A DNA stretch of 64,000 nt from Clavaria fumosa (lineage: Eukaryota > Basidiomycota > Agaricomycetes > Agaricales > Clavariaceae). Both the position numbers and the translations under genes were made by a program. Below the pieces are notes generated by a model that saw nothing but the letters and a program-made list of their open reading frames with translations, ran no database searches and was not told the origin of the DNA. The stretch's first letter is position 1. Each line of letters opens with the position of its first letter. This document shows, in pieces, positions 37,726-62,926 of this stretch. Where the stretch lies: assembly GCA_951802425.1 (NCBI GenBank), contig OX637794.1:186001-250000 (forward strand), given 5' to 3'.

Positions 37726-37865
37726 CCTTCTGTCATGAAAGCGTCGTCCGTACTACCAGGCCAGCAAATTTCAATCCTTTAACTTAAGAAACACCATGCA
37801 AATCAGGCGAACAAGGGGCTAAACCCCAACTATATATTTTATCGCAAGATAAGTACAATACTTAT

Positions 37866-38790
37866 CTACACGAAAGAGAGCCAAGACCCCTCTTCATCAA
37901 GGGAGGAGCCCGAGGTGCCGTACTCAGACCCCCAAGACTCCTCTTCCCATGACTCATCTGAAGAGTCTGAGAAGTCAGACTCACCCACGAACCCGAGAGC
38001 TACCCTCAAGGGATGGGAGGCAAACTGACCATCCCAGATTCCCGCCTCCAGGGCAGCCTCTCGCAGATCTCGCACAGCGCCGAGAGAACCTCCGTCGTCC
38101 AGAGTAGGAGACGGGAGGGGGGAATAGGCGGGGGGGAGGTCAACGGTAGGAAGGGAGGGCGACGGAGGAGGCGCCACCAACGGGGTATCCAGAGGTTGGG
38201 GATCTGGACCTGGGGACGGTAAGCCGGGTGTACAGGACCAGAACCAATCTCAGCCCAATCCTGCCCACCTTGGTACCAAGTACCTTGGTCACCCCAAGGG
38301 GTGGTGGCCCAGGCAGTTGGCGAGGGAGGGCGGGGAGGAGCCCAGTCCCAATCTATAAAGAATCAGACTTACTGGAGATAGAGAGAAGCAGCTCAGCTAA
38401 CTCACCATGAGGGTCCTCGAGAAGGTCACAGATACGTCGGTAAGGACCTTGGGTCAAGGAGCAATCCTTGACAAGGTGGGAGGGATCCCCACAGGCGAAG
38501 CATCGGTCGAGGACCCAGTAGAGGTCCGCATCGGCGGGGACGAGTTGAACCCACCAGTGGAAGGTATCGCAAGAGAGCTTGATTCCAGTACGAGGAGCGA
38601 AGAGGGAGGAGCTGTGGAAGAACTCGACAAGGTGGTGGCCTTGGAAGCACATAGCAGGCAGACTCTGAAGGGACGACGAAAGGAGGAAGACCGTCCTTTT
38701 ATCCAATAACCGCCACAGACTGATCTCGACCTCGATTGGGCAAACCCCTATCCACCAGACATGATCACCCCTAAGAAGATCTCTGATCAA
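37866..38790 (-). CDS. Antisense spliced zinc-knuckle gene in the 5' LTR of E
   Basis: Exon 1 38,790-38,373, intron 38,372-38,210 (GTAAGT...CCCCAG, 163 nt), exon 2 38,209-37,866; the join keeps frame and gives 253 aa. Residues 97-110 are C-F-A-C-G-D-P-S-H-L-V-K-D-C, a perfect C-x2-C-x4-H-x4-C knuckle as in Gag nucleocapsids. Before it is a Trp-rich region (S-C-D-T-F-H-W-W-V-Q-L-V-P-A-D-A-D-L); after it a Pro-rich stretch and an acidic, Ser/Trp-rich tail. It runs opposite to the element's own transcript, in both LTRs. Role unknown; RNA or DNA binding is inferred from the knuckle. It could derive from a captured Gag-like ORF. Splice sites fit well, but transcription is unproven. Confidence 0.6.
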
Positions 38791-38898
38791 AGATCAGTTT
38801 CACTCGATCACTGCATCACACCGATCGATCAAGTGATCATGACTCAGAACAGCTCGATCACAGATCAGCTGACCCTCCGATCATATCCCCAACAAGAT
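38763..38898. promoter_or_regulatory. GATC-motif cluster between antisense gene and sense TATA box (E LTR)
   Basis: 12 GATC tetramers in 136 bp, several as TGATCA or CGATCGATC. The cluster overlaps the antisense gene's first codons and lies upstream of the sense TATA box, where a shared bidirectional control region would be expected. Repeated at +7,404 in the 3' LTR. Confidence 0.45.
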
Positions 38899-39099
38899 CA
38901 GATGCAGCCGACATGATATAATGCATCGAAGCGGGGACCCTATCTGATCGCGGATGACATCATCATCACAAGGATCCCAACAAAGATCGACACTGCTCAG
39001 ACTCATCATCCCAGTGCAAGCGCGCAGCTTTCCTGATCATCTATCAGATTCCGATATTTAATCAATGACTCATACATCACGTACAGCCTATAGCTAGAG

Positions 39100-39145
39100 T
39101 ATATAAGACCTGAGACCAACCCACATGTACCCTAGCTTCGATCTT
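39100..39145 (+). promoter_or_regulatory. E sense promoter: TATA box and predicted transcript start (R)
   Basis: TATATAAG at 39,100-39,107. AGCTTCGATCTT begins 34 nt downstream of the first TATA base and matches the reverse complement of the primer-binding site, as the 5' end of a self-priming transcript should. Confidence 0.7.
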
Positions 39146-39182
39146 TTCGTCTATACACTTACTTGAGAGACCTCAACTAAGT

Positions 39183-40022
39183 CTGACAGCAAACGTCGCT
39201 GCTGAGAACTTCGCACTGGAAGGATTCGTCTTCCCGCCTTTAAGGTCGCAAGTCATCCCTCCTGAGAGTTTCACCAGCCACCCATCGATTGAGCAGAACC
39301 TCTATCGGTTCGAGTATTACCAAAGGTATACAAGGACTTGGATAAAGGACCGACTACTCCGAGCCAATCCCCAGACTTATTACCAGACACTTCGACTACT
39401 GCAGGAGTATTCCCTGCATATCGAGAGACAAGTCCGCCAGGACTATCGACTAGCATTAGAAACTGAACAGACCCTTCGCTCTACCCTTGCACACCAAAGG
39501 GGTTTTGCTGTCACAAGCCCGACACAAGATCGAAGCTCTTCAGTAAGCCTAGAGCGAGAGAGAGAACCGGATTGGGAGACCACAGACACCTCTGAAGAAA
39601 GACGAGAGAGACTACCTCGAAGAAGAAGAAGACACGTTGACCCAGACGATTCAGATATCTCTGTTACCAATTTGGAACAGAACGTAGTGGGACGAGTCTT
39701 AGACGCCGCAGTATTGTGGACACGACCTTTAGGGAGAGTAATACCCCCCAGAAGCATTCAGAGGAGAACCGCACATCGGAACCTGCAAGTATTATACACT
39801 GCCCAGGAAGGGATAGCAGAGCGAGAAAGAAATCCAGTCATCTCATTTGTACCCGCACTCGAGTTTAAACACCAAGACTACGCCAACCTAGGGTACCCAA
39901 TCACCTGGCTTGACGCACTCAGAGCAGAAGTACAGATCGAGCGTAACCCGGAAGGAAGGATCATAGAGATCATTTGCAGGAACCCGCACGAAAGAAGAAG
40001 TCATACCGATGAGCTCCGTTAA
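39183..40022 (+). CDS. E leader reading frame without ATG, spanning U5 and the internal region
   Basis: The frame read from 39,183 to TAA at 40,020-40,022 has no stop (279 codons from a CTG) and is in fact open from about 39,123, but contains no ATG. It crosses the LTR end and the primer-binding site. The product would be Tyr/Arg/Gln-rich, then Arg/Glu/Asp-rich, with protein-like composition (about 116 codons after a TTG at 39,672). It overlaps the first 14 bases of gag, ATGAGCTCCGTTAA-type. Could be a non-AUG-initiated N-terminal Gag part, a separate leader protein, or a chance open frame. Confidence 0.4.
   Translation: MTANVAAENFALEGFVFPPLRSQVIPPESFTSHPSIEQNLYRFEYYQRYTRTWIKDRLLRANPQTYYQTLRLLQEYSLHIERQVRQDYRLALETEQTLRSTLAHQRGFAVTSPTQDRSSSVSLEREREPDWETTDTSEERRERLPRRRRRHVDPDDSDISVTNLEQNVVGRVLDAAVLWTRPLGRVIPPRSIQRRTAHRNLQVLYTAQEGIAERERNPVISFVPALEFKHQDYANLGYPITWLDALRAEVQIERNPEGRIIEIICRNPHERRSHTDELR
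39526..39537 (+). promoter_or_regulatory. E primer-binding site, self-priming type
   Basis: AAGATCGAAGCT, starting one base after the LTR end, is the perfect reverse complement of 39,134-39,145. No TGG start matching a tRNA 3' end is present. Confidence 0.75.
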
Positions 40023-41379
40023 AGAAGATATTCCAGGGAGCAAGGGAGGGGCAAAGATTGCCACGGCCTATACAGCAGAGAGACAGACTTCACTGATGGC
40101 ATCAAGTCTAGAAGAAGACATCTTCAAGAAGGAAAGAGAGTTTGAAGCCAGAATGGCCGTACACAGGGAAGAAGAAGCCACATATAGGGCAAGGATGGGA
40201 CTACCAGAGGTGGAGACCTCCGTGAGTGCAGAACGAGAATACTTTATACCCAAGCAGGAACCGACAACACCAACACCAGCACCAAAGGGCAAAGGAAGGG
40301 TCACCATGTCGACAGATCCCTTCGAAGGAGTAAAGGAAGGCACCACACCTGCAGCAGAGTTTAACCCCTTCACCTTACCAAGAGGGACCGGAAGCAAACC
40401 ACCAGGTGGAGGCCCACCAGGGAGGGACCCTTCTGGGAGTGAACCTTTCGGGAAGAGACCGCCAGGAGGGGAACCACCAGGTGGGGGCCCACCAGGAAGA
40501 GGTCCACCAGGAGGAGGCCCACCAGGAGGAGGCCCACCAGGAGGAGGATACCCAGGAATGATCGGAATGCCAGAGAGAATAGGAATACCTAAACCACCAA
40601 AGCCAACACCCCCTGTCCCATTTGATGGAGAGCGAGAGAACTGGGGACCATTCGTGGTGCAGGCATACCTGTATTTCGCAGCATACCCATTCTATTTTGG
40701 AACAGGTCAAGACGAAGCGAGGTGCCTACAGTTCCTGCGATGGTTTGAAGGACCTGTAGTGAAGACTTGGGCCTATGGATTATTGACAACAATAGGGACC
40801 CCGCAGCCACATCCCTTTCTCAACGATTGGAACGCGCTCCTTGAGGAAGCTGCCAAACTCTGGGGTCCCATCAATGAACCACAGATGGCCAGAACAAAAC
40901 TCAGGGAACTCAGACAAGAGAAGACAGTATCTGAGTACCACGCCATGTTCACCAGATGGTCAGTACCAAGTGGATACAATGAAATCGCCTTAGGAGAGAT
41001 GTTCTACCACGGATTGAAGCCAGCAATCAAGGATCTCCTGGTGCATGTCGAGAGACCAGAGACGGTGTCCGGACTGCTTGGAGTGGCCATTCAGTATGAA
41101 CAGAGTATCCTAACAAGAATCAGAGAAAGGGGGCCAGTCTGGAAGATGCCCAGACAACCCTTCAAAGGAGAGACAGCTAGGGGAGACATGAACAGAGTGG
41201 CGATCAAAGCCTCAAGACTCGCCCCAGCAGAACGGATGAGACGACTCAAAGAAGGAACATGTTTTATTTGTGACCAGAAAGGACACCTTGCTCGTGAGTG
41301 TCCTCAACGACAGAAAATGCAAATCCGAGGAACAGCAAACGAAGAAACCAAGAAAGAAGAGGATTTTCAGGAAGGTTGA
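40009..41379 (+). CDS. gag: Element E Gag (capsid and zinc knuckle), 456 aa
   Basis: Charged N-terminus (about 1-120), a collagen-like run of G-G-G-P-P-G repeats (about 124-186), a capsid-type helical domain (about 205-370: F-D-G-E-R-E-N-W-G-P-F, F-Y-H-G-L-K-P-A-I-K-D) and a CCHC knuckle starting at C418 (C-F-I-C-D-Q-K-G-H-L-A-R-E-C). Gag packages the element RNA into virus-like particles. ATG at 40,009 overlaps the stop of the leader frame. The protease frame overlaps its last 82 bases in the -1 frame; I saw no canonical slippery heptamer there. Confidence 0.88.
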   Translation: MSSVKEDIPGSKGGAKIATAYTAERQTSLMASSLEEDIFKKEREFEARMAVHREEEATYRARMGLPEVETSVSAEREYFIPKQEPTTPTPAPKGKGRVTMSTDPFEGVKEGTTPAAEFNPFTLPRGTGSKPPGGGPPGRDPSGSEPFGKRPPGGEPPGGGPPGRGPPGGGPPGGGPPGGGYPGMIGMPERIGIPKPPKPTPPVPFDGERENWGPFVVQAYLYFAAYPFYFGTGQDEARCLQFLRWFEGPVVKTWAYGLLTTIGTPQPHPFLNDWNALLEEAAKLWGPINEPQMARTKLRELRQEKTVSEYHAMFTRWSVPSGYNEIALGEMFYHGLKPAIKDLLVHVERPETVSGLLGVAIQYEQSILTRIRERGPVWKMPRQPFKGETARGDMNRVAIKASRLAPAERMRRLKEGTCFICDQKGHLARECPQRQKMQIRGTANEETKKEEDFQEG

Positions 41380-41939
41380 AGAGAGAGCCCACAAACTCTT
41401 CGACCTATAGTACCCCAGAGTCTGCACCTGTATTTATTCGATCAGTCCCAAATGATGACCATATTTATCTTGACATCATGCTGGAGACTGAGAGAATAAA
41501 TACTAAGGTAAGGGCACTGGTGGACAGTGGGGCCTCAAGTCTGTTCATATCCCCAAGACTGGCCAAGCGATTCAGGCGACAGCACCTCAGAAAGGCAATT
41601 TCCCTGACCAATATTGATGGGACCCCTAACCAGATCGGGAAGATCACCCATCAAGTGAAGGCGACCCTGAAGGCACAGGGGCATGAGGCAAAGGAGAACC
41701 TATTGATAGCAGACATAGGGGTCGAAGACGTCATCATAGGAATCGACTGGTTGAGGAAACACAACCCAACCATAGATTGGAGGACAGGGAAGTTCACATT
41801 CTCCAAGTGCCCGGTGAGCTGCACGAAAGAGAAAGGGAGGCGCTATACCCCAGTGACAATGAGCTTTGGAGGAATAAATGCAAAGGACACCTTTCAGAGG
41901 TTGATGAAGGAATTCGAAGACACCACTGAATGTCTATAG
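41298..41939 (+). CDS. Element E aspartic protease (-1 frame relative to gag)
   Basis: 213 codons open. Active-site V-D-S-G-A-S-S-L-F-I-S, then I-G-I-D-W-L-R-K-H-N near the C-terminus, the usual gypsy protease end. It lies in the -1 frame relative to gag with an 82-bp overlap; an in-frame ATG is at 41,298. It ends at TAG (41,937-41,939), after which the same frame continues without a stop into pol. Confidence 0.82.
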   Translation: MSSTTENANPRNSKRRNQERRGFSGRLKREPTNSSTYSTPESAPVFIRSVPNDDHIYLDIMLETERINTKVRALVDSGASSLFISPRLAKRFRRQHLRKAISLTNIDGTPNQIGKITHQVKATLKAQGHEAKENLLIADIGVEDVIIGIDWLRKHNPTIDWRTGKFTFSKCPVSCTKEKGRRYTPVTMSFGGINAKDTFQRLMKEFEDTTECL

Positions 41940-44900
41940 GGAGAAGAAGAAGAACCCAATGAAGATGACCAACCCGAAGAGGGAGACCAAGTGTTCGAGG
42001 TTACGGATGCAGAAAGGATCATGCAAATTGCCGCAGGGTTTACCAAGTCACAGCAAATAGCAGAGCAGGTACTTCGACAAGAGAAGGTACGAACGTTCGA
42101 AGAAATGGTACCCAAGGAGTTTCGAAGGTACAAGAAGGTGTTCGAGCAAAAGGCATCAGAACGACTTCCCGAGAGGAAACCATGGGACCACGCAATAAAC
42201 TTGGAGGAAGGAGCGCCCTTACCTAACTCCAAGAAGTACGCCATGTCCCCGAAAGAAAGAGAAGCCTTGATGGAGTACTTGGACGAGAACCTAGCCAAAG
42301 GGTACATCAGGAAGTCAGAAGGACCAGGGTCACCAGCAGCCTCACCAGTGTTCTTCATCAAGAAAAAGGATGGTAGCCTGAGGTTAGTGGTTGATTATAG
42401 GAAGCTGAATGCAATTACCATCAAGGATCGGTTCCCACTACCCTTGACTCAGACCTTACTTGACAAGCTGGCCTTGGCCTATTACTTCACGGCCTTGGAT
42501 TTACAGTGGGGATACAATAACGTCCGGGTAAGGAAAGGAGACCAGTACAAGGCTGCCTTCGTGACTGAGGAAGGATTGTATGAACCGGAGGTTATGGGGT
42601 TCGGACTGTGTAACGCCCCGGCAACCTTCCAGCGGATGATGCACGACATATTCAAAGATATGGCCAACGTGGTGGTATACCTGGACGACATCCTGATATT
42701 CTCAGAGACAAGAGAGGAGCATGTGACGACAGTCCTGGAGGTGCTTCGACGACTACAGGAGAATGACCTATTCTGTAAACCAGAAAAGTGCAAGTTCTTC
42801 CGTGGAGAGACGGAATACTTAGGGTTTTTGATTTCACACAATCAAATCAGAATGGATCCAGCAAAGGTACAGGCGATCATGGACTGGCCAGAACCAACAA
42901 CTGTGAAGGGGATACAGGAAGTCCTGGGGTTCGGCAATTTCTACCGAAGGTTTATCAAAGGGTACTCTGAGCAGGTCAGACCTTTGACTAGTCTGTTGAA
43001 GAAAGGGAAGGTCTTTGAATGGGGAGAGGAACAAAGACAAGCATTCAGACAGTACAAGGATAAGTTCAAGGACGCCCCTGTCTTGATCATCCCAAATCCG
43101 GAGGAGCCCTATGTAGTGGAGTGTGATGCTTCAGACTTTGCAGTCGGAGCAGTGTTGTCACAGAAGGGAGAGGATGGGAATGTGCACCCGATAGCCTTCA
43201 TGTCAAAAGCAATGAATGCCGCTGAGAGAAACTACCAGATTTATGACAAGGAGCTACTGGCTATCATTCTGGCTCTTAAGCAGTGGCGACATTACTTGGA
43301 AGGGGCACGACACAGGGTAACCATTCTATCTGACCATCAGAACTTGCAATACTTTGGGGGAGCACAGACACTCACCCGGAGACAGGTGAGGTGGGGTTTA
43401 TTCCTGACACGATTTGACTACGAGATCAAGCATCGACCTGGACGACTGGGAGGGAAGCCAGACAAACTATCACGGAGGCCCGACCATAAGCCAGAAACCC
43501 CAGACAACCAAGGATGGCAGGTCCTACAGCTGAACTCCCCAGAGGTGCTACAACCAGAAAGGATTAGGATCTGTGCCATGAAGAGAGGACATGCTTCAAG
43601 CCTCCAGGATCACCCTATTCGGAGACGAATTAGGAAGGAAGTAGAATACGACCCGGAGGTGATGGAAGCAATGAAACTCCTGAAGATGGGACCAAGGCAA
43701 CTGCGAAAGGGGCTGGAAGATTGGAACCTGGAAGATGGATTGCTACTCTTCCAGGGGAAGGTATGCGTACCAGACAACCCAGGGATACGAAGAGATCTGG
43801 TTAAGCTGCACCACGACTCACTAGAAGTAGGCCATCCAGGGGTCTACAAGACAATGGAACTTATTTCCCGGAACTACTGGTGGCCAGGGATGACCAGGTA
43901 CATCAAGCATTACGTAGAAACCTGCGACACCTGCAATCGGAAGAAGAACTGGGCGCAGAAACCCAGAGGGGAACTTCGACCCATTCCACCAGCAGAACGA
44001 CCTTGGCAGGTGGCCACCAATGACTTCATCGTGGAATTACCTAAGTCGGCAGGATACGATGGAATTTGGGTGGTAGCAGACCATCTAACCAAGGAAGCAC
44101 ATTTCATTCCAGTCAAGTCAGACATTGACACAGAAGAGACCATTGACTTGTATTTACAGCATGTCTGGAAGCTGCATGGAGTCCCAGAGAAGATGATCTC
44201 AGACCGAGGAACACAATTCACATCCAAGCTGATGAGAGGAGTGTTCAAGAAGTTAGGTGTACAGGGGGCCTATTCCACTGCATACCACCCACAGACAGAT
44301 GGACAGACCGAGCGAATCAATCAGACCTTAAAGCAATACTTACGACTCTTCTGTCGCTATCGACAGAATGACTGGAGCCACTACCTACCAATGGCAGAAT
44401 TCGCCTACAACAACAATGTTAGCACCACCACTAAGCAATCTCCCTTCTATGCTGCGAGGGGATATCATCCAAGGATGACATTTGACACAGGAAAGGATAC
44501 AGGGGTGCCCAAGGCGGAGGAAGTAGTCAGCCATCTCCATCAGGTACAGGACGAACTGAGAGCAGCTATGAAGCTGTCTCAGGAACAAATGGCGCGGTAC
44601 TACGACAAGGACCGTCAAAAAGAATCACCATTTAAACTAGGACAGAAGGTGTGGTTAGATGCCAGAAATATCACCACCACAGCCCCCAGTAAGACACTGG
44701 CCGATCGACGACTAGGACCATTTGAAGTCATCGAAGTTCTCTCTGACGTCAACTACAAATTGGAACTACCAGCCTCGATTCGAGTCCACCCAGTGTTTCA
44801 CATCTCCCTGCTATATCCATACGAAGAATCAATGATTCCAGGACGAGTAGAACCCCCACCACCACCAGTGGAAGTGGAGGGAGAGGAGGAGTACGAGATT

Positions 44901-45122
44901 GGGGAAATCAAGGATGGACGGCTATGGCGAAGTCAGAAACAGTACCTAGTCGGATGGGAAGGATATGGACCAAACGAAGACATGTGGAAACCAGAGAAGG
45001 AATTGGGACACGCGGAAGAGGCAATCAGACACTTTCATGACACCCATCCAGAGTTCGTCTGGATGACTGCTAAGAAGAGGAAGGCCCGTGGTTCATCCTC
45101 GAAAATCTCCGGTGAAGCTTAA
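41940..45122 (+). CDS. pol: Element E Pol: RT, RNase H, integrase, chromodomain
   Basis: Open from 41,940 to TAA at 45,120-45,122 in the protease frame. From the first alternative start (41,991, 1,043 aa): RT with [11 protein letters not shown] (about 229), RNase H with C-D-A-S-D-F-A-V-G-A-V (about 376) and D-K-E-L-L-A-I, integrase zinc domain (H-H-D-S-L-E-V-G-H ... C-D-T-C, about 606-646), core N-D-F-I-V-E, S-D-R-G-T-Q-F and [10 protein letters not shown], and a chromodomain (Y-L-V-G-W-E-G-Y-G-P-N-E-D-M-W-K-P, about 980-1,000). All catalytic residues are present, so it is potentially active. Expression must pass the UAG at 41,937. Confidence 0.93.
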   Translation, partial: GEEEEPNEDDQPEEGDQVFEVTDAERIMQIAAGFTKSQQIAEQVLRQEKVRTFEEMVPKEFRRYKKVFEQKASERLPERKPWDHAINLEEGAPLPNSKKYAMSPKEREALMEYLDENLAKGYIRKSEGPGSPAASPVFFIKKKDGSLRLVVDYRKLNAITIKDRFPLPLTQTLLDKLALAYYFTALDLQWGYNNVRVRKGDQYKAAFVTEEGLYEPEVMGFGLCNAPATFQRMMHDIFKDMANVVVYLDDILIFSETREEHVTTVLEVLRRLQENDLFCKPEKCKFFRGETEYLGFLISHNQIRMDPAKVQAIMDWPEPTTVKGIQEVLGFGNFYRRFIKGYSEQVRPLTSLLKKGKVFEWGEEQRQAFRQYKDKFKDAPVLIIPNPEEPYVVECDASDFAVGAVLSQKGEDGNVHPIAFMSKAMNAAERNYQIYDKELLAIILALKQWRHYLEGARHRVTILSDHQNLQYFGGAQTLTRRQVRWGLFLTRFDYEIKHRPGRLGGKPDKLSRRPDHKPETPDNQGWQVLQLNSPEVLQPERIRICAMKRGHASSLQDHPIRRRIRKEVEYDPEVMEAMKLLKMGPRQLRKGLEDWNLEDGLLLFQGKVCVPDNPGIRRDLVKLHHDSLEVGHPGVYKTMELISRNYWWPGMTRYIKHYVETCDTCNRKKNWAQKPRGELRPIPPAERPWQVATNDFIVELPKSAGYDGIWVVADHLTKEAHFIPVKSDIDTEETIDLYLQHVWKLHGVPEKMISDRGTQFTSKLMRGVFKKLGVQGAYSTAYHPQTDGQTERINQTLKQYLRLFCRYRQNDWSHYLPMAEFAYNNNVSTTTKQSPFYAARGYHPRMTFDTGKDTGVPKAEEVVSHLHQVQDELRAAMKLSQEQMARYYDKDRQKESPFKLGQKVWLDARNITTTAPSKTLADRRLGPFEVIEVLSDVNYKLELPASIRVHPVFHISLLYPYEESMIPGRVEPPPPPVEVEGEEEYEIGEIKDGRLWRSQKQYLVGWEGYGPNEDMWKPEKELGHAEEAIRHFHDTHPEFVWMTAKKRKARGSSSKISGEA

Positions 45123-45134: not shown

Positions 45135-46928
45135 TGTCATGAAAGCGTCGTCCGTACTACCAGGCCAGCAAATTTCAATCCTTTAACTTAAGAAACACCA
45201 TGCAAATCAGGCGAACAAGGGGCTAAACCCCAACTATATATTTTATCGCAAGATAAGTACAATACTTATCTACACGAAAGAGAGCCAAGACCCCTCTTCA
45301 TCAAGGGAGGAGCCCGAGGTGCCGTACTCAGACCCCCAAGACTCCTCTTCCCATGACTCATCTGAAGAGTCTGAGAAGTCAGACTCACCCACGAACCCGA
45401 GAGCTACCCTCAAGGGATGGGAGGCAAACTGACCATCCCAGATTCCCGCCTCCAGGGCAGCCTCTCGCAGATCTCGCACAGTGCCGAGAGAACCTCCGTC
45501 GTCCAGAGTAGGAGACGGGAGGGGGGAATAGGCGGGGGGGAGGTCAACGGTAGGAAGGGAGGGCGACGGAGGAGGCGCCACCAACGGGGTATCCAGAGGT
45601 TGGGGATCTGGACCTGGGGACGGTAAGCCGGGTGTACAGGACCAGAACCAATCTCAGCCCAATCCTGCCCACCTTGGTACCAAGTACCTTGGTCACCCCA
45701 AGGGGTGGTGGCCCAGGCAGTTGGCGAGGGAGGGCGGGGAGGAGCCCAGTCCCAATCTATAAAGAATCAGACTTACTGGAGATAGAGAGAAGCAGCTCGG
45801 CTAACTCACCATGAGGGTCCTCGAGAAGGTCACAGATACGTCGGTAAGGACCTTGGGTCAAGGAGCAATCCTTGACAAGGTGGGAGGGATCCCCACAGGC
45901 GAAGCATCGGTCGAGGACCCAGTAGAGGTCCGCATCGGCGGGGACGAGTTGAACCCACCAGTGGAAGGTATCGCAAGAGAGCTTGATTCCAGTACGAGGA
46001 GCGAAGAGGGAGGAGCTGTGGAAGAACTCGACAAGGTGGTGGCCTTGGAAGCACATAGCAGGCAGACTCTGAAGGGACGACGAAAGGAGGAAGACCGTCC
46101 TTTTATCCAATAACCGCCACAGACTGATCTCGACCTCGATTGGGCAAACCCCTATCCACCAGACACGATCACCCCTAAGAAGATCTCTGATCAAAGATCA
46201 GTTTCACTCGATCACTGCATCACACTGATCGATCAAGTGATCATGACTCAGAACAGCTCGATCACAGATCAGCTGACCCTCCGATCATATCCCCAACAAG
46301 ATCAGATGCAGCCGACATGATATAATGCATCGAAGCGGGGACCCTATCTGATCGCGGATGACATCATCATCACAAGGATCCCAACAAAGATCGACACTGC
46401 TCAGACTCATCATCCCAGTGCAAGCGCGCAGCTTTCCTGATCATCTATCAGATTCCGATATTTAATCAATGACTCATACATCACGTACAGCCTATAGCTA
46501 GAGTATATAAGACCTGAGACCAACCCACATGTACCCTAGCTTCGATCTTTTCGTCTATACACTTACTTGAGAGACCTCAACTAAGTCTGACAGCAAACGT
46601 CGCTGCTGAGAACTTCGCACTGGAAGGATTCGTCTTCCCGCCTTTAAGGTCGCAAGTCATCCCTCCTGAGAGTTTCACCAGCCACCCATCGATTGAGCAG
46701 AACCTCTATCGGTTCGAGTATTACCAAAGGTATACAAGGACTTGGATAAAGGACCGACTACTCCGAGCCAATCCCCAGACTTATTACCAGACACTTCGAC
46801 TACTGCAGGAGTATTCCCTGCATATCGAGAGACAAGTCCGCCAGGACTATCGACTAGCATTAGAAACTGAACAGACCCTTCGCTCTACCCTTGCACACCA
46901 AAGGGGTTTTGCTGTCACAAGCCCGACA
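45135..46928 (+). mobile_element. 3' LTR of element E
   Basis: 1,794 bp, same as the 5' LTR except four sites seen by eye (38,096/45,481 region C/T, 38,394/45,797 A/G, 38,760/46,164 T/C, 38,818/46,222 C/T). Each is CG in one copy and TG or CA in the other. Confidence 0.94.
45270..46194 (-). CDS. Antisense spliced zinc-knuckle gene, copy in the 3' LTR of E
   Basis: Exons 46,194-45,777 and 45,613-45,270. Identical design to 37,866-38,790, with an Ala/Thr and a His/Arg difference caused by CpG transitions. The CCHC knuckle and splice sites are intact. In this LTR the antisense transcript would run toward the internal pol end, so it could also overlap pol mRNA. Confidence 0.6.
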
Positions 46929-59994: not shown

Positions 59995-62926
59995 CGACTC
60001 CGATCGTACGGAACCGATACTCGATACCCTTTCCTTTCATCGTTCTCTTTCCCTTCTTGCCTCCTCTCCTTCTATTTCGTCTCCGTTCAAAGCTATGATA
60101 GACTCCGGCGCTGAACTTTGTTTCATTGACGCCAAATTTGCTTCTCGCTTCCGTCTTCCGAAAACTCCGGTGACCCCTCGGGAGGTCATTTTTGTTAACG
60201 GGACCACCTCCATATGGGTTACCGAAGCGGTCTGGTTATCCATTCGGCTCTCCGCCATGGATCCGACCGACGTCTTGTGTGTAGTTACCGATCTTGATCC
60301 CTCTAGTGATGTGATCTTGGGAATGAATTGGCTGTTCCAAAACAACCCGCTGGTTGACTGGATTACTGGCCAGATAAAGCCCAGACCATCTACGAAAGAG
60401 GAGAAAACTCCGAAATCTGATCCAGAGGGTGCACCGGCCAGCACTCTCCACTCTGTCCCTCTGTCCACCTCTGTCCCTCTGTCTGTCTCCGCTCCGTGTG
60501 CTCCGGTTCAAATGTCGTCTGCAGCGACTCCGAACCAGACCCAGACTCCGTCTCCATCTCTGCCTCTGTCTCCGTCTTTGACCCAGTCTCTGACCTTTCC
60601 GTCTACTCCGTCTCTCCAGGAGACACCCAAAGTTTCTTTTGTTAATGCTGCCGCATTCGTCACGGCTTGTGGACTTCGCGGGTCCCAAGTCTTTGGCATG
60701 ACGTTGTCGAGCAAGTCCGCGCGCGTGGCCTCCGCTTCGTTCAACGTCCCCGACACCACCCCCCAGGACCTCCTCTCCGTTCCGGAGGAGTACAAGGACT
60801 TCCCAGATGTCTTCAGTAAAAAGAAGGCAGATACCCTTGCTCCGCATCGACCGTATGATTTAAAGATCAACCTGCTGGATGGCCAATCCCCTCCGCCAGG
60901 TGCGGTCTACTCTCTGTCGCAGTCCGAACTCAGCGAACTCCGCGAGTTTTTGGACGAGCACCTCCGCATCGGATTTATCCGTCCAAGCCGTTCTCCGCAT
61001 GGAGCACCTGTGCTCTTTGTCCGGAAGAAGAACGGAACGCTCCGATTATGCGTTGATTTCCGTGGTCTCAATAAATTGACCAAAAAAGACCGTTATCCGC
61101 TCCCGCTGACTAAAGATCTTCTCGACGTTCCAGGAAAAGCCCGAATCTATACAAAACTCGACCTCCAACATGCGTATCACCTGGTCCATATCGCTGAGGG
61201 TGACAAATGGAAGACCGCATTCCGCACCCGATACGGATCCTTTGAATGGTGTGTGATGCCTTTCGGGCTCACAAATGCGCCCGCCACATTCCAGCACTTT
61301 ATGAACGACATATTCTCCGACCTTCTTGACACGTTCATGGTCGTCTACCTCGACGACATCCTAATTTACTCCGAGGATCCGAAACAACACGTTGAGCACG
61401 TCCGAGAGGTACTCCGAAGGCTCCGGGAGCACGGACTCTTCCTGAACCCGGCTAAGTGTGAATTTCACGCTGAAACCGTGGAGTATCTCGGATTTGTTTT
61501 ATCTCCGTCCGGACTTTCTATGGACATGGCTAAAGTGAAAACTATACAGGATTGGCCGACTCCGCGGAAGGTCAAGGATGTCCAGTCCTTCCTCGGGTTC
61601 GCCAATTTCTACCGCCGCTTCATCCATGGCTATTCTGAGATCGTCGCTCCGATGAACCGCTTGACGCATAAAAACATTGAGTGGCAGTGGTCCGACGATT
61701 GCCAGTCCGCATTTGACTATCTAAAAACCGCGTTCTCCACGGCTCCGATCCTCTCGCACTTCATACCTGGAGCTCCGCTGATAGTCGAAACGGACGCCTT
61801 GGACTACGCTGTCGCCGCGATACTTTCTACGGTCGCCTCCGACGGTGAAGTCCACCCTATCACTTTTCATTCCCACACCCTAGGCGTCTCCGAACTGAAC
61901 TATGACACCCACGATAAGGAACTTCTTGCTATATTTGAGGCGTTTACCGCTTGGAGGCACTATCTCGAAGGTTCTGAAATTCCAGTCAATGTTGTTACCG
62001 ACCACAAGAACCTAGAGTACTTCTCCACAGTCCGCCTGCTCACCCAGCGTCAAGCCAGGTGGTCGGAGTTCCTTTCCCAGTTCAATTTCGTGATCCGATT
62101 CCGCCCTGGGCACCTCGGAATGAAACCCGATGCATTGACTAGACGTTGGGACGTCTATCCCAAAGAGGGGGATAGCGACTATGCCCGCGTCAATCCGCAA
62201 AACCTCCGGCCGATGTTCTCCAGCGAACAATTGATATCGTCTCTCCGAGCTTCGTCGCTTTACGTACCCGCACTCCGCACATCGTTTGTGATTGACGATC
62301 ATCAACTCCGAGAGGACATCCGGTCTGGACTCTTGCTCGATCCTGTGATCGTCCCGATCCTAGAAGACCTCCGCTCGAACTCCGCGGACCCTAAGTGGTC
62401 CATGGACGATGACAGACTTCTCCGCGAGCGCGGACGGATTTATGTACCGGACGTCAATGACCTCCGACTCCGCGTTTTATGCGCGAGACATGATCACCCG
62501 CTTGCCGGACATTTCGGTCAGACCAAGACTACGGCCTTGGTCTTCAGGGATTATACCTGGCCGAAACTCCGAGGATTCATATCGGACTTTTGCAAGTCTT
62601 GCACGACTTGTGGTAGGGCAAAAGCCCCTTGGCATAAGCCATATGGAACGCTCAAGCAGCTACCCATACCCGAGAAACCGTGGAATTCCATTTCGATGGA
62701 TTTCATCGAGCAACTCCCTGAGAGCTCCGGTTTTACCGCAATATTGGTGGTTGTTGATAGGTTTACGAAGCAGGGAATCTTCATCCCGACGACCGATGAA
62801 GTGAACTCCGCGGAGTTGGCCCGTCTATTCGTATTCCACGTCTTCTCGAAACATGGAGTTCTGTTGCATGTCACCTCTGATCACAGCTCCGAGTTCGTTT
62901 CCCATTTTTTTTCACTCGTTGGGTAA
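59954..62926 (+). CDS. pol: Element D Pol: protease, RT, RNase H, integrase N-terminus and half the core
   Basis: 990 codons open. Protease M-I-D-S-G-A-E-L-C-F (about 47) and V-I-L-G-M-N-W-L-F. A Ser/Pro/Thr-rich insert (about 150-230). RT with [12 protein letters not shown] (about 463). RNase H with E-T-D-A-L-D-Y-A-V-A and D-K-E-L-L-A-I-F. Integrase zinc domain (H-D-H-P-L-A-G-H-F ... C-T-T-C) and core M-D-F-I-E-Q and T-S-D-H-S-S-E-F. Translated by -1 shift from gag (TTG at 59,954 is not a true start). It ends early because of one extra T in a T8 run near 62,905-62,912; the frame continues at 62,853-63,776. Two positions in the S-D-H-S-S motif carry CA where TG stands in D-prime, pointing to an ancestral CG. 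Confidence 0.92.
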   Translation: MSSPESIVRLSGCSDSDRTEPILDTLSFHRSLSLLASSPSISSPFKAMIDSGAELCFIDAKFASRFRLPKTPVTPREVIFVNGTTSIWVTEAVWLSIRLSAMDPTDVLCVVTDLDPSSDVILGMNWLFQNNPLVDWITGQIKPRPSTKEEKTPKSDPEGAPASTLHSVPLSTSVPLSVSAPCAPVQMSSAATPNQTQTPSPSLPLSPSLTQSLTFPSTPSLQETPKVSFVNAAAFVTACGLRGSQVFGMTLSSKSARVASASFNVPDTTPQDLLSVPEEYKDFPDVFSKKKADTLAPHRPYDLKINLLDGQSPPPGAVYSLSQSELSELREFLDEHLRIGFIRPSRSPHGAPVLFVRKKNGTLRLCVDFRGLNKLTKKDRYPLPLTKDLLDVPGKARIYTKLDLQHAYHLVHIAEGDKWKTAFRTRYGSFEWCVMPFGLTNAPATFQHFMNDIFSDLLDTFMVVYLDDILIYSEDPKQHVEHVREVLRRLREHGLFLNPAKCEFHAETVEYLGFVLSPSGLSMDMAKVKTIQDWPTPRKVKDVQSFLGFANFYRRFIHGYSEIVAPMNRLTHKNIEWQWSDDCQSAFDYLKTAFSTAPILSHFIPGAPLIVETDALDYAVAAILSTVASDGEVHPITFHSHTLGVSELNYDTHDKELLAIFEAFTAWRHYLEGSEIPVNVVTDHKNLEYFSTVRLLTQRQARWSEFLSQFNFVIRFRPGHLGMKPDALTRRWDVYPKEGDSDYARVNPQNLRPMFSSEQLISSLRASSLYVPALRTSFVIDDHQLREDIRSGLLLDPVIVPILEDLRSNSADPKWSMDDDRLLRERGRIYVPDVNDLRLRVLCARHDHPLAGHFGQTKTTALVFRDYTWPKLRGFISDFCKSCTTCGRAKAPWHKPYGTLKQLPIPEKPWNSISMDFIEQLPESSGFTAILVVVDRFTKQGIFIPTTDEVNSAELARLFVFHVFSKHGVLLHVTSDHSSEFVSHFFSLVG

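Follow-up and report, generated by a model that had tools for sequence, protein, structure and literature searches.

Sequence comparison shows that both LTRs of the retrotransposon E carry, within their U3 region, a minus-strand gene of three exons and two introns, which would encode a 224-aa CCHC-knuckle protein (Table 1). The element lies in a 64,000-nt stretch of Clavaria fumosa DNA (the window). The gene structure is borne out by selection; the gene is moreover conserved among copies, linked to particular elements and still present in solo LTRs. The best explanation is a selected antisense U3 gene whose spliced mRNA would give rise to a nucleic-acid-binding accessory protein that tunes the element, a reading to which we assign a probability of roughly 0.65.

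Table 1. Coordinates of element E and of the putative antisense gene in its LTRs (positions in the window).
Feature	Position	Strand	Remarks
5' LTR of E	37731..39524	+	1,794 bp; TG...CA ends, CCTTC flank duplicate
Exon A	38406..38652	-	ATG at 38652; N-terminal domain, CCHC knuckle, ICDLLEDPH motif
Zinc knuckle C-x2-C-x4-H-x4-C, CFACGDPSHLVKDC	38461..38502	-	in exon A
Intron A	38353..38405	-	53 nt, GTGAGT...TTATAG, phase 1
Exon B	38269..38352	-	DWDWAPP...WGDQGTWYQ
Intron B	38210..38268	-	59 nt, GTGGGC...CTTACCGTCCCCAG, phase 1
Exon C	37866..38209	-	proline-rich linker, acidic serine-rich tail; stop ends at 37866
Antisense TATA-like box ATAAAAGG	38695..38702	-	starts 50 nt before ATG
Sense TATA box TATATAAG of E	39100..39107	+	about 400 bp from antisense box, facing away
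Sense leader frame	39114..40022	+	302 codons, no Met; spans LTR/internal border, overlaps gag start
gag	40009..41379	+	Retrotrans_gag, zf-CCHC
Protease, then RT-RNase H, integrase, chromodomain	41478..45122	+	two ORFs in this copy
3' LTR of E	45135..46928	+	second gene copy, offset +7404
Exon A, 3' LTR copy	45810..46056	-	LTR offset 7404; frame intact (L002)
Exon B, 3' LTR copy	45673..45756	-	LTR offset 7404
Exon C, 3' LTR copy	45270..45613	-	one residue different (A/T)

With its protease-RT-RNase H-integrase order and C-terminal chromodomain, E belongs to the Ty3/Gypsy chromoviruses. Since its two LTRs (1,794 bp each) mismatch at only 4 positions and CCTTC is found at either flank, the insertion is recent. 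Based on the position of the TATA box, U3 of the 5' LTR would span about 37731-39125, with R/U5 beyond. The RT-bearing frame within 41478-45122 comprises 1,060 codons, compared to 1,274 in several sister copies, and thus the protease-pol frame of this copy seems to be interrupted. Another Gypsy-type RT, 53% identical to that of E, is located near the right end of the window (60095-62926). Further copies were searched for in the genome of the same organism (48.76 Mb, 17 contigs), where the best 40 of 152 candidates obtained with the LTR were all 96-100% identical over the 1,793-base query.

To describe the evolution of the LTR, 67 copies from this genome, 80-100% identical to the LTR of the window, were aligned over the first 1,793 of its 1,794 bases. 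The set is non-random, as it combines the best-scoring loci with divergent ones picked by hand: 79 of 81 loci matched, some of them being the same place twice, and of the 70 distinct sequences three short ones were dropped. A tree was built, and changes were counted by parsimony and treated as independent. The codon signal sets in around the ATG at 38652 and then switches frame twice. Internal-branch changes at codon positions 1/2/3 amount to 33/17/124 in exon A (chi-square p = 1e-25), 10/16/45 in exon B (p = 4e-7) and 87/37/186 in exon C (p = 7e-25), while internal branches display no periodicity over the 99 nt leading up to the ATG (30/40/43, p = 0.29) or after the stop (36/38/42, p = 0.79). 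Stops and a lack of purifying selection in other E-family LTRs had been sought as a disproof of the gene, and this was not the outcome. Relative to a neutral expectation taken from the LTR flanks, of which one part is itself weakly periodic (67/96/96, p = 0.04), internal branches give an N/S of 0.27 and terminal branches one of 0.41; the corresponding values for nonsense changes are 0.07 and 0.23. Among the 63 LTR copies with a coverage >90%, the ATG is conserved in 60 and GT-AG in 62 at intron A and again in 62 at intron B; the complete 224-aa frame is preserved in 40.

Differences that arose after insertion served as a control (34 LTR differences, 14 of them coding). Eight same-element LTR pairs differ in their coding region by 4 synonymous and 9 replacement changes plus a single nonsense change, which looks neutral, albeit with small numbers. 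These pairs lack periodicity, and the codon signal most plausibly reflects selection acting on element lineages rather than a mutational rhythm. By sequence comparison, the predicted 224-aa product is under purifying selection at this level. Some results blur this picture: a weak periodicity persists in intron B (internal changes 8/10/22, p = 0.014), intron A has an uneven distribution of terminal-branch changes (30/4/22), and the predictions for two related proteins, P0001 and P0002, run through the sites of both introns. Retained introns might therefore be coding in part.

The exon-intron layout given here differs from that of the first-pass annotation, which had joined two exons across a single 163-nt intron into a 253-aa product. 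The antisense frames, the GTAAGT at 38372, the CCCCAG ending at 38210 and the in-frame join were all found again in both LTRs, and so was the perfect knuckle. The sequence evidence supports a spliced gene for a zinc-knuckle protein, antisense in either LTR, but neither the proposed layout nor the length of 253 aa. The acceptor and the second exon were placed correctly, but the donor was not, as it falls within intron A, and within the supposed intron the stretch 38352-38269 shows the changes of a coding exon, exon B, in a different frame. Moreover, no start codon opens the 253-aa frame, in which the first Met is residue 47; the 46 residues ahead of it lack codon signal, as judged from the 99 nt next to the ATG, and coding use upstream of the ATG was thus dismissed. 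When the whole upstream frame was used as query, matches of about 40% identity began at query residues 34-47, which is at most 14 residues before the Met. An unrelated upstream exon might conceivably be joined ahead of the ATG.

Searching the genome with exon A delivered at least 116 E-type matches, fragments included, among the best 150 of 198 candidates; three secondary matches of copies already counted are left out of this number, and the remaining matches form a group of about 40% identity. Eighty of the at least 116 lie outside same-strand pairs 7.0-8.8 kb apart. Among the loci retrieved, 48 distinct full LTRs could be checked at both ends; 23 of them are flanked by perfect 5-bp duplications, adjoin no internal sequence at either end and are hence solo LTRs. 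The whole antisense frame is kept in 15 of these 23, so the gene remains after element loss, as the first-pass annotation had anticipated for a solo LTR.

The gene is found in a second Gypsy family, F, as well. A search with this second gene type led to at least 62 F-type matches, fragments included, among the best 150 of 201 candidates. At locus L080 an F element has LTRs of 1,687 bp, 99.6% identical to each other, each containing the antisense gene on the strand opposite to a pol that is 58% identical to pol of E. The predicted E and F products share 44% amino acid identity over 81 aa, and both genes have the start (MC...), the knuckle and the ICDLLEDPH motif in common, with intron A at the same site and in the same phase. 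The spliced F product is predicted to comprise 145 aa with a shorter tail than that of E, and TATATAAGG of F begins 45 nt ahead of its ATG. Between L080 and L081 the few differences by codon position are 0/3/8 in exon A and 5/3/8 in the second coding region. The evidence for F comes from the LTR pair of a single element plus one further copy.

An RT search addressed the linkage of the gene to its elements. The best 142 of 1,906 candidates comprised 20 E-type RTs, an additional E copy that is split into two pieces, 4 F-type RTs (65-68% identity to E) and 116 others at ≤54%. Opposite-strand matches to the antisense gene flank 16 of the 20 E RTs on both sides within 5.4 kb; three have a match on one side (one of these 5.9 kb off) and one has none, while the split copy has one same-strand match among three. 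All four F RTs are flanked on both sides by opposite-strand matches, again within 5.4 kb. Five of the 116 other RTs have a gene match within 6 kb, with mixed strands. As far as families were scored, a recognisable form of the gene is thus tied to the lineage of E and F. No third family carrying it was seen among the best 150 of 176 candidates in the same genome, and its presence in both E and F would most simply derive from a common ancestor. A subset of F-type gene fragments (matching the query from residue 25 onwards, in frames 68-71 aa long) was mostly located within about 200 kb of contig ends, for contigs of known extent, as if they were part of a subtelomeric repeat. In this genome (G000) these sites are C12:2608401, C15:7590, C2:4848639, C3:21565, C9:75789, C14:21367 and 111047, C1:5171674, C7:73042, C11:2866581 and C4:4565940.

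Profile searches in public collections revealed 13 related proteins (P0001-P0013), none with an informative name, two being labelled 'hypothetical protein' and the others nameless; a multi-knuckle protein, P0014, matches weakly. The motif ATTPWGDQGTWYQG of exon B recurs in P0001, P0002, P0005 and P0009. E, F and nine relatives were aligned (alignment A4), leaving out P0005, P0008 and P0009, which are partial or without a start, and P0002, which is close to P0003. In this alignment M1, H7, F11, S15, C28, F31, H32, C51, C54, H59 and C75 are invariant and C64, I74, L77 and L78 nearly so. Among the invariant residues C28, H32 and C75 lie outside the knuckle; they could form a second metal site. 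Within the last 42 aa of the E product there are 12 D/E and 12 S, and no K/R. With the 253-aa product as query, zf-CCHC reached 15.3 bits, below the Pfam cutoff of 20.8; P0003 and P0004 carry precomputed PF00098. No bZIP family was among the Pfam matches up to an E-value of 1 for the same query, which lacks exon B. Solved structures gave 19 matches, of which 14 are chains of retroviral nucleocapsid or Gag, with a best E-value of 0.0025. Two AlphaFold runs gave mean pLDDT values of 54.8 and 54.7, too poor for use.

A TATA-like box precedes the putative gene. It is unchanged in all 67 aligned LTR copies. Within the 99 nt that precede the ATG no other 8-mer is free of inferred changes, although the rest of the LTR contains further ones of this kind. 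Together with the sense TATA box it forms a divergent pair within U3, with a spacing of about 400 bp in E and about 350 bp in F. The stretch between both promoters of E (38703-39099) is rich in GATC (17, 7.7 expected) and TGATCA (4, 0.8 expected), while the matching stretch between the F promoters has neither. A scan for bacterial promoters and terminators delivered nothing useful.

The sense RNA of E would start with an unusual leader. From its assumed start at 39130, 879 nt are free of ATG in all frames (6.5 expected), which occurred in 7 of 5,000 Markov simulations; one ATG is found at 39125, just ahead of that start. Throughout R/U5 of the 67 copies there are 18 ATGs compared to 187 expected. 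The leader frame is free of stops in 35 of 52 full-length copies, and within the LTR it has the substitution pattern of a coding frame, its third positions being the fast ones (116/47/58 on internal branches). The F leader comprises 722 nt, again without ATG (5.0 expected), and its frame likewise starts within the LTR and overlaps gag (L080 6339-7154, minus strand). An AUG-free leader frame in both families suggests non-AUG initiation and leaky scanning. ORFs I/II of RTBV are AUG-free and read by leaky scanning from a non-AUG start (PMC5902531). They offer a possible model for the AUG-free leader frame of E, RTBV being a plant pararetrovirus.

Antisense accessory genes of LTR elements are already known. 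A review describes additional antisense ORFs for the fungal Botrytis Boty (brtn), maize Grande (gene23), rice RIRE2 and Silene Retand; they sit between pol and the 3' LTR and are present in most copies, and the review states that what such genes do is not yet determined (PMC7264820). Going by these descriptions, the E gene resembles the class of Boty brtn and Grande gene23, together with RIRE2 and Retand, in being antisense to gag-pol and present in most copies, but is set apart from it by its position inside U3 of both LTRs, its two introns and its persistence in solo LTRs. Among retroviruses, HBZ of HTLV-1 and APH-2 of HTLV-2 are antisense, transcribed from an LTR promoter, spliced, protein-coding and regulatory, with expression shown (PMC10186651). 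For HIV-1, an antisense gene in U3-R of the LTR, HAP, is reported, with antisense RNA and protein tested (PMC1654176). The E gene shares the antisense orientation with all of these, as well as the location in the LTR with HAP, and its conserved TATA-like box and splice sites would fit a spliced transcript from an LTR promoter as in HBZ/APH-2; beyond what is described for HAP, it has two introns, occurs in two families and bears amino-acid-level selection, all of this being known here from sequence. However, HBZ is a bZIP protein while the 253-aa product has no bZIP match in Pfam at E-values up to 1, and, unlike in HBZ/APH-2 as described, the whole coding region of the E gene lies in the LTR.

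An antisense mRNA is reported for the mussel LTR element MchSLE-1 (PMC10974842), a trait that E would share, its own antisense mRNA being putative. The sag gene of MMTV is a protein gene in an LTR, but it is located on the sense strand and encodes an unrelated protein. Titles and abstract openings on fungal or LTR-internal antisense genes, which leave the subscription literature mostly uncovered, named none that lies entirely within the LTR of a retrotransposon. New here would thus be a two-intron gene under selection that lies wholly inside an LTR.

Several other explanations have to be weighed against a selected protein-coding gene. The frames might have arisen by chance in a GC-rich LTR with mutational periodicity, which would fit to the short knuckle, itself below the Pfam cutoff, and to the weakly periodic part of the neutral flank. 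However, the strong periodicity tracks the exon borders, vanishes before the ATG and after the stop and is missing from same-element pairs, and such frames would hardly share 44% of their residues between E and F; chance is barely credible as an explanation. Antisense RNA rather than protein might matter instead, pairing with the 3' end of the sense RNA to form dsRNA, and an antisense transcript would in fact overlap the U3 part at this end. Yet selection falls on codons and splice sites, neither of which is needed for a role of the RNA. Antisense RNA alone thus fails to explain amino-acid-level selection, and we regard it as very improbable.

Two further alternatives concern the protein itself. 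A similar knuckle in the sense gag and the predominance of retroviral nucleocapsid or Gag chains among the solved-structure matches would agree with a duplicated or captured Gag piece that is kept as a second, structural nucleocapsid, and a captured Gag-like ORF had been considered in the first-pass annotation too. Nearly all of these structure matches are confined to the knuckle, though, and nothing beyond it speaks for such an origin: Pfam found no Retrotrans_gag or capsid domain in the antisense product, in contrast to the sense gag, and neither Pfam nor the solved structures gave a gag counterpart for the conserved H7, F11, C28, F31 and H32 or for the ICDLLEDP motif. A Gag piece is therefore quite unlikely. 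The restriction factor p22 acts on its own element, Ty1, and an antisense protein, produced from solo LTRs as well, might comparably restrict E in trans and control its copy number. The 23 solo LTRs among the 48 full LTRs, their frequently intact frames and the many E-type matches outside same-strand pairs are in line with this idea. In contrast, the neutral look of the few same-element LTR differences suggests that the host does not maintain the copies after insertion, and copy-number control seems unlikely to us.

For the preferred reading, a selected gene encoding an accessory protein, the following course can be envisioned. The antisense TATA-like box of the LTR would drive transcription of an antisense mRNA, with its coding part confined to the LTR; this mRNA would be spliced at both introns and translated. 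The CCHC knuckle and the acidic tail point to a nucleic-acid-binding accessory protein, which might act on the element's own RNA or DNA and thereby tune expression or replication, possibly in a manner analogous to HTLV HBZ/APH or the antisense genes of Boty and Grande. Motifs and analogy thus suggest its role; a trans-acting nucleic-acid-binding protein is plausible, and sequence alone cannot distinguish a helper from a restrictor. The introns would be kept through replication because the sense RNA that serves as genome contains their reverse complements, which would not be removed by splicing ahead of reverse transcription, as follows from established splicing and reverse-transcription biology. 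Its location in U3 gives the gene a copy in either LTR and leaves it in place in solo LTRs. One might go further and speculate that the LTR is a two-way gene cartridge, in which divergent TATA promoters serve a spliced antisense regulator on one side and a sense RNA with an AUG-free frame on the other, while solo LTRs act as stand-alone regulator genes, so that the debris of the element controls its later activity. This extension is tentative and rather unlikely.

LTRs are usually treated as gene-free regulatory DNA and solo LTRs are usually counted as inert scars. A selected, spliced gene would explain the length of the LTRs described here, and its antisense orientation would be a way for a retroelement to carry introns through RNA. 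Each E insertion plants two copies of this putative accessory gene, and solo LTRs could be intact genes, as would hold for 15 of the 23 identified in this genome. The E gene may thus represent a compact test case for the function of antisense accessory genes of LTR elements.
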